Both the position numbers and the translations under genes were made by a program. Positions 26,767-31,162 of a stretch of DNA of 54,053 bases are shown in pieces (positions within the stretch are counted from its first letter, which is position 1; each line of letters opens with the position of its first letter). Under the pieces are notes generated by a model, which ran no database searches, was not told where the DNA came from, and saw only the letters and a program-made list of their open reading frames with translations. Source of the DNA: Chitinophagales bacterium. GTDB taxonomy: Bacteria; Bacteroidota; Bacteroidia; Chitinophagales; S012-47. The stretch covers positions 1 through 54,053 of the forward strand of contig JALSIH010000153.1 of NCBI GenBank assembly GCA_026981615.1, written 5' to 3'.

Positions 26767-29700
26767 ATGAAGGAAAGCAAAAAATACCGTGAAATAAAGC
26801 AACTGAACCTTCCTCAGATTGACAAAGAGATAGCTGCATTTTGGGAAGCGGAGAAAATCTTTGAGAAGAGCGTGAGCAGTCGCGAGGGGAAGGAAAACTT
26901 TGTCTTTTATGAAGGTCCTCCCTCGGCCAACGGGATGCCCGGTATCCATCATGTGCTCTCGCGCACCATCAAGGACCTCTTTTGCCGTTATAAAACCATC
27001 AAAGGCTTCAAGGTTGAGCGCAAGGGCGGTTGGGATACGCACGGCCTGCCTGTAGAGCTGAGCGTAGAGAAAATGCTCGGGATCAGCAAAGAGGACATCG
27101 GAAAGAAAATTTCCATAGCCGAGTTCAACCGCATTTGCCGTGAGCAGGTGATGAAGTACAAAGGGGTTTGGGACAAATTGACCCGCGAGATGGGTTACTG
27201 GGTCGACCTGGATGACCCATACATTACTTTCAAGAACGAATACATCGAGACCCTCTGGTATCTGCTGAAGCAGCTCTATGCCAAGGGGCTGCTTTACAAA
27301 GGATATACCATACAGCCTTTTTCACCGGCAGCCGGCACGGGGCTGAGCTCGCACGAACTCAACCTGCCGGGAAGCTACCGTCCGGTGAAGGATACCACGG
27401 TGGTGGCCCAGTTTGAACTCAAAGACAAGCCCGGTGAATATCTGCTGGCATGGACGACCACGCCCTGGACCCTCCCTTCCAACACGGCTTTGGCAGTGGG
27501 CCGTAAAATCCGCTACGTGAAGGTGAAAAGCTTCAACAAATACACCCGCCTGCCGATTGCCGTCTATCTGGCCGAAGAGCGCCTGCCGGCATATTTCAGC
27601 GAGAAGAACGGATACGTAGAAGTGCAGTCGGAAAGCGATTTGAAAAAGTTCGGGGAAGACGGGAAAGCCATTCCTTATTACGTAGCCGGGCGGCTTACCG
27701 GCAGCGAAATGGAAGGCTGGCGCTACCGGCAGCTCATGCCCTATGCGCAACCCGAAGAGGGAGATGCCTTTCGTGTGATTATCGGTGATTTTGTGACCAC
27801 CGAAGAGGGAACAGGCATTGTGCATATCGCTCCGAGCTTTGGGTCGGATGACCTGAGAGTAGCCCGGAAAAACGGCATAGGCACACTTACCCTTGTAGAC
27901 CGCAGCGGAAAGTTTGTCGACCGTGTGCATGATTTTGCAGGGCGCTATGTCAAAAACTACAAGGACGAAGAAGACTACAAGCCCGTGGATATTGACATCG
28001 TAGTGAAGCTCAAAGGCGAAAACAAGGCTTTTGATATTGAAAAATACGAACACAATTATCCGCATTGCTGGCGCACGGATAAGCCGGTTATTTACTACCC
28101 GATGAACTCCTGGTTTATCAAAACCACGGCCTATAAAGAGCGCATGGCCGAGCTCAACCGAACGATCAACTGGCAGCCGCCTTCGACCGGAACCGGACGC
28201 TTTGGCAACTGGCTTGAGAATCTGGTAGACTGGAACCTCTCGAGGAGCCGCTACTGGGGCACCCCGTTGCCGGTCTGGGTTTCGGAAGGCGAGGATAAAG
28301 GCAGCCCCGAGGCGAAGGAGGTGAAAGTGATCGGCTCCATTGCGGAATTGCGCGAGGAAGTGAAAAAATCCGTGGCGGCCGGCTTTATGGAGAAAGAACT
28401 GCCCGAAGAAATTGACCTGCACCGTCCCTATGTTGATGAAATCGTACTGGTGTCTGACAGCGGCAAAAGAATGTTCAGGGAGCCCGACCTCATCGATGTC
28501 TGGTTTGACAGCGGAGCCGTGCCCTATGCCCAGTGGCATTATCCTTTTGAAAACAAAGACAGCTTTGACCGGCACTTTCCGGCCGATTTCATTGCCGAAG
28601 GAGTGGATCAGACAAGGGGCTGGTTTTTTACGCTGCATGCCCTTGCTGTCATGCTTTTTGACTCGGTGGCCTACAAAAACGTGGTGAGCAACGGACTGGT
28701 GCTTGACCGCGAAGGCAACAAAATGTCGAAGCGCCTGGGCAATGCCATTGATCCCTTTCTGATGCTCGAAACACACGGAGCCGATGCGGTTCGCTGGTAT
28801 CTCATGCACAACTCGCAGCCCTGGGACAATGTGAAATTCGACCCCTCGGGCGTAGAAGCCGTAAAAAGAAAATTCTTTGCCACGCTCTTCAATACCTACT
28901 CCTTTTTTGCACTCTATGCCAACATTGACGGCTTCAGATACCGGGAAGAGGAAATTCCGCTTGAAAGGCGACCTGAAATTGACCGGTGGATCATTTCGCT
29001 GCTTAACAGCCTGATCAGGGAAGTGGACGCTTATCTTGAGGCGTACGAGCCGACCCGTGCGGCACGGGCCATCCAATCTTTTGTAGTCGATCATCTGAGC
29101 AACTGGTATGTCCGGCTGAGTCGCAAAAGATTCTGGAAAGGAGCCTACAACGAAGACAAAATATCGGCCTACCAGACCCTCTATGCAGTGCTCGAAAGTG
29201 TGGCCGTCATGATGTCGCCCACGGCCCCCTTCTTCTCCGAGTTTTTGTTCAAAAGCCTCAATGCCGTGAGCCAGCGAAGGAAAGAAGAATCGGTTCATCT
29301 GAGCAACTTTCCGGCAAGCGACCCGGAGGCCATTGACAAAAAACTGGAAGAACGCATGCAGCTTGCCCAGGATATCTCATCGCTGGTTCTCTCGCTGCGC
29401 AAAAAAGTGAATATTAAAGTAAGGCAGCCCCTGCAGAAAATACTGATACCGGTACAGAACGAGTCCTTCAGAGAGCAGCTGGAGCGGGTGGCTCCCATCA
29501 TTCTTGCCGAGGTAAATGTGAAGGAAATCGAGTATGTAAGCGATACCTCGGGCATTGTCAAAAAGAGAGTAAAACCCGACTTCAAAAAACTGGGGCCCAG
29601 GCTCGGACGTCAAATAAAGGAACTTGCCCGTGTTTTGGGGAACTTAAGTCAGGAAGAGATCGTAGATTTTGAAAGTTCCGGCCAAATCACCCTGAAAATT

Positions 29701-30081
29701 CCGGATCAGGAATTGACGATCACAACGGATGAAGTGGAAATCCTCTCGGAGGACATTCCGGGCTGGCTGGTAGCCAACCTGGGCGAACTGACGGTAGCGC
29801 TGGATATCAACCTGAGCGAAGAGCTCGAAGATGAAGGCTTGGCGAGGGAACTGGTGAATAAAATCCAGCGCCTGAGAAAAGAGAGCGGACTGAATGTGAC
29901 CGACCGCATAAAATTGAAAATTGCGGGAGATGAGAAAATAAAACGCAGCGTAAATCGCTTCAAAAACTATATTTGCAGCGAAGTGCTGGCCTCTGACGTT
30001 GAATTTCAGGATCATCTGCCCCGGGGTACAAAGATTGACATCAACGATAAAGAGGTTTTAATTCAATTAGACAAGGCTTAA
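26767..30081 (+). CDS. ileS: Isoleucyl-tRNA synthetase (long form, GXHH signature)
   Basis: 'GPPSANGMPGIHHVLSRTIKDLFCRYKTIKGFKVERKGGWDTHGLPVEL', 'KMSKRLGNAIDPF', 1104 aa. Confidence 0.97.
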   Translation: MKESKKYREIKQLNLPQIDKEIAAFWEAEKIFEKSVSSREGKENFVFYEGPPSANGMPGIHHVLSRTIKDLFCRYKTIKGFKVERKGGWDTHGLPVELSVEKMLGISKEDIGKKISIAEFNRICREQVMKYKGVWDKLTREMGYWVDLDDPYITFKNEYIETLWYLLKQLYAKGLLYKGYTIQPFSPAAGTGLSSHELNLPGSYRPVKDTTVVAQFELKDKPGEYLLAWTTTPWTLPSNTALAVGRKIRYVKVKSFNKYTRLPIAVYLAEERLPAYFSEKNGYVEVQSESDLKKFGEDGKAIPYYVAGRLTGSEMEGWRYRQLMPYAQPEEGDAFRVIIGDFVTTEEGTGIVHIAPSFGSDDLRVARKNGIGTLTLVDRSGKFVDRVHDFAGRYVKNYKDEEDYKPVDIDIVVKLKGENKAFDIEKYEHNYPHCWRTDKPVIYYPMNSWFIKTTAYKERMAELNRTINWQPPSTGTGRFGNWLENLVDWNLSRSRYWGTPLPVWVSEGEDKGSPEAKEVKVIGSIAELREEVKKSVAAGFMEKELPEEIDLHRPYVDEIVLVSDSGKRMFREPDLIDVWFDSGAVPYAQWHYPFENKDSFDRHFPADFIAEGVDQTRGWFFTLHALAVMLFDSVAYKNVVSNGLVLDREGNKMSKRLGNAIDPFLMLETHGADAVRWYLMHNSQPWDNVKFDPSGVEAVKRKFFATLFNTYSFFALYANIDGFRYREEEIPLERRPEIDRWIISLLNSLIREVDAYLEAYEPTRAARAIQSFVVDHLSNWYVRLSRKRFWKGAYNEDKISAYQTLYAVLESVAVMMSPTAPFFSEFLFKSLNAVSQRRKEESVHLSNFPASDPEAIDKKLEERMQLAQDISSLVLSLRKKVNIKVRQPLQKILIPVQNESFREQLERVAPIILAEVNVKEIEYVSDTSGIVKKRVKPDFKKLGPRLGRQIKELARVLGNLSQEEIVDFESSGQITLKIPDQELTITTDEVEILSEDIPGWLVANLGELTVALDINLSEELEDEGLARELVNKIQRLRKESGLNVTDRIKLKIAGDEKIKRSVNRFKNYICSEVLASDVEFQDHLPRGTKIDINDKEVLIQLDKA

Positions 30082-30089
30082 AAAAGGAA

Positions 30090-30482
30090 ATGCTTATGAG
30101 TACGGAAAAAATAGAAAAAAGCAGATATAGCGATCAGGAATTGCAGGAATTCAAAGATTTGATCATGCAAAAACTGGAGTCGGCACGCAAAGAACTGAGC
30201 TACCTGCAGGATCAGATCAGCAATGCCGGCAACGGTACGAGCGACACCTCCGCTAAATTCAACGGCATAGAGGATGGTGTGGATATGATGGAAAAGGAAT
30301 ACCTGACCCAGATGGCTTCGCGCCAGATACAATTTATCAAGCATCTCGAAAATGCACTCATTCGCATTGAAAACAAAACCTATGGCATTTGCAGGGAAAC
30401 GGGCAAGCTGATCAGCAAGGAAAGACTGCGTGCCGTACCTCATGCCACCCTGAGCATTGAAGCCAAAAAACGAAAAAAATAA
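30090..30482 (+). CDS. TraR/DksA-family protein with degenerate zinc finger
   Basis: 'YGICRETGKLISKERLRAVPHATLSIEAKKRKK'; between ileS and lspA; an alternative ATG is at 30096. Confidence 0.88.
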   Translation: MLMSTEKIEKSRYSDQELQEFKDLIMQKLESARKELSYLQDQISNAGNGTSDTSAKFNGIEDGVDMMEKEYLTQMASRQIQFIKHLENALIRIENKTYGICRETGKLISKERLRAVPHATLSIEAKKRKK

Positions 30483-30493
30483 AAGCATCCGGA

Positions 30494-31162
30494 TTGAAAA
30501 CCTGGCAGAAGTCCGTATTGATTGTCCTGGGCGTTTTGATCATTGATCAGGTACTGAAATTTTGGGTGAAAACCCACATGTATCTGGGTGAAGATATCCC
30601 CGTATTGGACGGCTTCTTCAAACTGCATTTTATTGAAAACGAAGGCATGGCATTCGGCATGTCATGGGGGCCCGATCACGGGAAGCTGGCACTCACGCTT
30701 TTTCGCCTTGTGGCGGTCATATTCATCGCTTATTTGCTTCATCGAGTGATACGCAATAGGAAACCCCTCGGCCTCGTAATCAGCCTCTCCCTCATTCTGG
30801 CCGGAGCACTCGGAAATATTATCGACAGCCTTTTTTACGGGATGATTTTCAGTGCCAGCCAGTGGGGCAGCTATCAGCCGGCTCTCTTTCTGCCTCCCGG
30901 TGGCGGCTACGCAGCGCTCTTTCACGGCAAAGTGGTCGACATGCTTTTTTTCCCCTTGATAGAAGGGGTTTATCCCCGGTGGCTTCCCTTTCTCGGTGGG
31001 CGCGAGTTTCTCTTTTTTCGCCCTGTCTTTAACATTGCCGATTCATCCATTACTATCGGGGTGTTTATTATCCTGATTTTTCAAAAACGATTTTTCGCTC
31101 ATAAAGAGGAGCATGAGGAGAAAGAGGGGCAGGAAGAAGCTCCGCTTCATTCCGAGAGGTGA
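30494..31162 (+). CDS. lspA: Lipoprotein signal peptidase (TTG start)
   Basis: 'IIDQVLKFWVKTHM', 'FIENEGMAFG', 'ALGNIIDSLFYG', 'GKVVDMLFFP', 'PVFNIADSSITIG'. Confidence 0.95.
   Translation: MKTWQKSVLIVLGVLIIDQVLKFWVKTHMYLGEDIPVLDGFFKLHFIENEGMAFGMSWGPDHGKLALTLFRLVAVIFIAYLLHRVIRNRKPLGLVISLSLILAGALGNIIDSLFYGMIFSASQWGSYQPALFLPPGGGYAALFHGKVVDMLFFPLIEGVYPRWLPFLGGREFLFFRPVFNIADSSITIGVFIILIFQKRFFAHKEEHEEKEGQEEAPLHSER

Follow-up and report, generated by a model that had tools for sequence, protein, structure and literature searches.

The window analysed here is a stretch of 54,053 nucleotides from a Chitinophagales bacterium (contig JALSIH010000153.1), and it carries an isoleucyl-tRNA synthetase (IleRS) gene, ileS, in which the class I signature HXGH reads GXHH. 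The questions raised by this locus are whether the altered motif belongs to the main IleRS of the organism, how far it extends among relatives and what it would mean for the action of mupirocin on the enzyme.

Signature motifs and type assignment of the window IleRS

The features considered are the following.

26767 to 30081, + strand: ileS, type 2 isoleucyl-tRNA synthetase (IleRS2) as assigned by TIGR00392, Pfam domains and tree, 1104 aa
26941 to 26952, + strand: G59-I60-H61-H62, GXHH replacing HXGH, a non-canonical class I signature (sequence and alignment column)
27316 to 27357, + strand: PFSPAAGTGLSSHE stretch, residues 184-197, without Cys (alignment)
28720 to 28734, + strand: KMSKR loop, second class I signature, intact, residues 652-656 (sequence and alignment)
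29497 to 30075, + strand: DUF5915, C-terminal domain, residues 911-1103 (PF19302, 197 bits)
30090 to 30482, + strand: TraR/DksA-type zinc finger protein, directly downstream of ileS (PF01258; order as in Parabacteroides and Riemerella)
30494 to 31162, + strand: lspA, lipoprotein signal peptidase (NF011369, 271 bits against a cut-off of 200; order as in Parabacteroides and Riemerella)

The codons GGT ATC CAT CAT at 26941-26952 (+) encode G59-I60-H61-H62 within EGPPSANGMPGIHHVLSRTIKD. In an alignment of 28 IleRS proteins these residues occupy the HXGH column, which reads HIGH in the IleRS1 of E. coli and Sinorhizobium, HLGH in Enterococcus IleRS1, HAGH in S. aureus MupA, GVHH in Nonomuraea and GIHH in Acetoanaerobium, the position of H62 being invariant throughout. 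No HXGH was placed elsewhere in the window protein by this alignment, and the sequence definition of a G/AXHH enzyme (Gly or Ala at position 1, His at position 3) applies to it. The first-pass annotation had described GIHH in place of HXGH in a protein of 1104 aa with an intact KMSKR loop; codons 59-62, the comparison with IleRS1 and IleRS2 proteins, residues 652-656 and the open frame at 26767-30081 confirm this description in full. KMSKR is also the usual form among the IleRS of relatives. The Cys-less stretch at residues 184-197 is common to the aligned Bacteroidota rows, and where the window protein has PFSPAAGTGLSSHE several non-Bacteroidota IleRS2 read PYC-x-x-C, which is probably metal-binding.

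The window protein scored 974.3 bits with the TIGR00392 ileS equivalog model (cut-off 621.4), which places it in the IleRS family, and the Pfam domains tRNA-synt_1, Anticodon_1 and DUF5915 were recognised in it. In a sequence search of solved structures the top matches were Priestia megaterium IleRS2 chains at 878-889 bits, the first-ranked being 8c8w, whose printed chain sequence has GVHH, while bacterial IleRS1 chains reached 333 bits or less. Alignment with P. megaterium IleRS2 extended as far as residue 1100, with DUF5915 at 911-1103, as in a C-terminal region of the IleRS2 type. In a maximum-likelihood tree the protein fell in the IleRS2 group (support 100/99) and within a Bacteroidota group (100/99); since the branches are long and the non-Bacteroidota rows few, this tree settles type and phylum and leaves the deeper branching unsettled. 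The MupA and MupB models gave 830.5 and 847.6 bits, below their cut-offs of 1900. As judged from its sequence, window ileS encodes an IleRS2, and the earlier suggestion of a long IleS2-type enzyme is upheld by the tree and the best structural matches.

Copy number, neighbourhood and distribution in Bacteroidota

A profile search of the source genome (2.66 Mb, 232 contigs, 94% complete) returned one full ileS match, the window gene itself. The next matches to the ileS model were, as recognised by their motifs, a ValRS on contig C45 and a LeuRS on C19, which keep HMGH and HVGH respectively; the motif change is therefore specific to the IleRS. A second match to the GXHH pattern in this genome (C186:6833) had neither an ileS match nor synthetase-like sequence and was dismissed as a chance match.

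Downstream of ileS, the order ileS-TraR/DksA-lspA is also annotated in Parabacteroides distasonis and Riemerella anatipestifer. By tblastn, a dksA-like gene was found within 2.5 kb downstream of ileS in 48 of 80 named relatives and lspA in 41 of the 80, counts that may run low as some contigs end early and some matches perhaps lie below the threshold used. The ileS-dksA-lspA context is thus common in relatives, to the extent of these counts. The earlier proposal that this is the main IleRS, on account of its gene context, agrees with the shared gene order and with the search for a second ileS, none being found in the 94%-complete assembly. Two records labelled as plasmids, NZ_OY725767.1 (Parabacteroides) and NZ_CP081932.1 (Riemerella), carry ileS-TraR/DksA-lspA together with other ordinary chromosomal genes, lepA among them on one of the two, and seem to be pieces of chromosome deposited under a plasmid label.

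The swapped motif was present in the genomic contigs of all 80 named relatives, as GIHH in 73 and GVHH in 7, with Chitinophaga, Pedobacter, Cytophaga, Flavobacterium, Flammeovirga and Dyadobacter among them, and it is kept in a congeneric genome (G001) whose IleRS is 94% identical. Because GIHH or GVHH recurs in all of these, GXHH is not a sequencing error. In 393 genomes sampled evenly over the phylum, a degenerate DNA pattern for NG-x-P-G-x-H-H matched in 393 of 393, covering 180 of 180 genera, the match being tied to an IleRS frame by translation at the fetched loci only, not in all 393. The reversed pattern, used as control, matched in only a few of the same genomes, and the GXHH matches are therefore not due to chance. 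Where compared by eye, the motif lay near the start of the ileS match (for example in G162, G186, G020, G127, G071, G082 and G218). The first-pass annotation had regarded GXHH as unusual for a housekeeping IleRS; this did not hold, as the motif is the norm for the phylum.

Exactly one ileS-model match at E <= 1e-150 was found in 197 of 198 phylum genomes. The single genome without a strong match, G212, nevertheless has the GXHH pattern, and its ileS is perhaps broken or split. In genome G290 a second GXHH-pattern match (contig C4) was not an IleRS. In G151, the small contig C10 encodes, at 552-779 on the minus strand, only the N-terminal ~80 residues of a GIHH-bearing IleRS before diverging, a full ileS being present elsewhere in that genome; this partial copy is a gene remnant or an assembly chimera.

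A canonical IleRS2-style pattern matched in 16 phylum genomes. Among the 15 loci read, 13 were GlnRS by their FPPEPNG-PH-GHA motif, one fell within a short frame that encodes no synthetase and one lay outside any ORF, so that no reversion to a canonical-motif IleRS was seen at 15 of the 16 loci, with a pattern that is blind to IleRS1 (NG-I-HIGH); the ileS model does find IleRS1 in control genomes. The viral contigs searched held no relative of the window IleRS. Two unverified and unannotated faecal scaffolds named 'Bacteriophage sp.' (MT835484.1 and MT835536.1) encode a full-length IleRS2 with HIGH and are probably bacterial DNA rather than phage.

Predicted mechanism, resistance and origin of the swap

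The biochemistry of swapped-motif enzymes has been described by Brkic et al. 2023 (PMC10485003), who counted 86 G/AXHH against 77 HXGH enzymes among prokaryotic IleRS2 and reported no IleRS1 with a swapped motif. According to that study, IleRS1 is mupirocin-sensitive and loses its activity with GXHH, while in IleRS2 the same change has a modest kinetic cost and G/AXHH raises the mupirocin Ki about 10^2-10^3-fold. The natural ALHH enzyme of D. radiodurans has a Ki of 6.6 mM against 8.1 uM for its HVGH version, and for canonical PmIleRS2 the value of 1.08 uM rises to 460 uM in the GVHH version; the natural G/AXHH values come from D. radiodurans and S. griseus, neither of them Bacteroidota. Because the motif-bearing helix tip is displaced in IleRS2, a His at position 3 can be accommodated with the adenine undisturbed and can replace the first His in catalysis, and it clashes with mupirocin (PMC10485003). 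These published Ki values bear out, for IleRS2, the link between GXHH and extreme mupirocin resistance that had been stated in the first-pass annotation. The word stem 'Bacteroid' is absent from the main text of that paper, and the literature searched yielded no mupirocin Ki or MIC for the source organism or any close relative. In a culture study with samples from two infants (PMC13085705), a model predicts a greater diversity of Bacteroidaceae isolates with mupirocin, in weak agreement with Bacteroidota resistance.

In the window IleRS2 the first and third residues of the class I signature are swapped. By extrapolation from PMC10485003, H61, at the third position, would act in the transition state in place of the first His, as in the assayed and solved homologues, since the motif-bearing helix tip of IleRS2 is shifted. 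The bulky H61 would then clash with mupirocin, at a low price in catalysis, and the Ki is predicted to lie between high-micromolar and millimolar values. The main IleRS of the source organism would consequently be intrinsically mupirocin-hyper-resistant, an expectation well founded by homology, and GXHH would be an ancestral and apparently fixed trait of Bacteroidota. Taken together, the window gene is very probably the sole housekeeping IleRS2 of its organism, with a swapped signature that is ancestral and apparently fixed in the phylum and that, as homology predicts, would confer mupirocin resistance.

A different account of its origin is that something other than mupirocin fixed GXHH in the phylum, the swap being neutral or catalytic in nature and resistance a by-product. 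All sampled genomes, from 180 genera and irrespective of habitat, have the motif, a distribution not expected from patchy exposure to an antibiotic by itself, and IleRS2 tolerates the motif at a modest kinetic cost; Brkic et al., on the other hand, favour selection by the antibiotic as the cause of the swap (PMC10485003). On balance this account is rather unlikely, although, as an account of why the motif exists, it does not conflict with the main explanation of the effect of the motif, and sequence data by themselves do not separate neutral or catalytic fixation from antibiotic selection. Lateral acquisition of a resistance gene beside or in place of a normal IleRS1, for which there is precedent in the plasmid movement of mupA in staphylococci, is very improbable given the single copy in the source genome and in 197 of 198 phylum genomes, the housekeeping dksA/lspA context common to Parabacteroides and Riemerella, the grouping of the protein with its phylum in the tree, the HAGH rather than GXHH of MupA, and a vertical distribution that was looked for throughout the phylum and found. 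Nothing was found in favour of an error in sequencing or assembly, or of a gene that is decayed and catalytically dead, and both are practically negligible against the full-length open frame, the intact KMSKR, the status as only IleRS in the genome and the GIHH or GVHH looked for and found in all independent relatives read.

The window gene is thus best taken as a housekeeping IleRS2 that is ordinary for its phylum, and swapped-motif IleRS2 and their effect on resistance are already published. The modest addition made here is the apparent phylum-wide fixation of GXHH without reversion in the sample, whereas reversion is reported in Deinococcus-Thermus (PMC10485003). It is tentatively proposed, at somewhat less than even likelihood, that GXHH is ancestral and fixed in the only IleRS of the whole of Bacteroidota, as a phylum-wide target-based hyper-resistance that may pre-date mupirocin selection and be unrelated to it. 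The entire phylum would be expected to have a mupirocin-insensitive IleRS, which is testable and bears on the behaviour of mupirocin-containing selective media, and the phylum-wide motif bears on whether the swap arose under antibiotic pressure at all.

Comparison with known systems

The nearest functional parallels are the G/AXHH enzymes of Deinococcus radiodurans (ALHH) and Streptomyces griseus, likewise of type 2, housekeeping and swapped at positions 1 and 3 (PMC10485003); the window enzyme differs from them in belonging to Bacteroidota, with GIHH, a KMSKR loop and a Cys-less stretch at 184-197. The P. megaterium IleRS2 structures (PDB 8c8u, 8c8v, 8c8w and 8c9d) are the best-scoring solved ones and have the domain order of the window enzyme, the GVHH of the 8c8w chain being the engineered swap of PMC10485003; the wild-type protein, unlike the window enzyme, has canonical HVGH with a Ki of 1.08 uM, in a species that also has an IleRS1. 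MupA, the plasmid-borne mupirocin resistance enzyme of Staphylococcus, is also an IleRS2 and about 39% identical to the window enzyme, but it keeps canonical HAGH and is an acquired second copy on plasmids. The IleRS1 of E. coli, Sinorhizobium and Enterococcus share the reaction and the class I fold with the window enzyme, whereas their signature is HIGH or HLGH and their identity to it is 26-28%.
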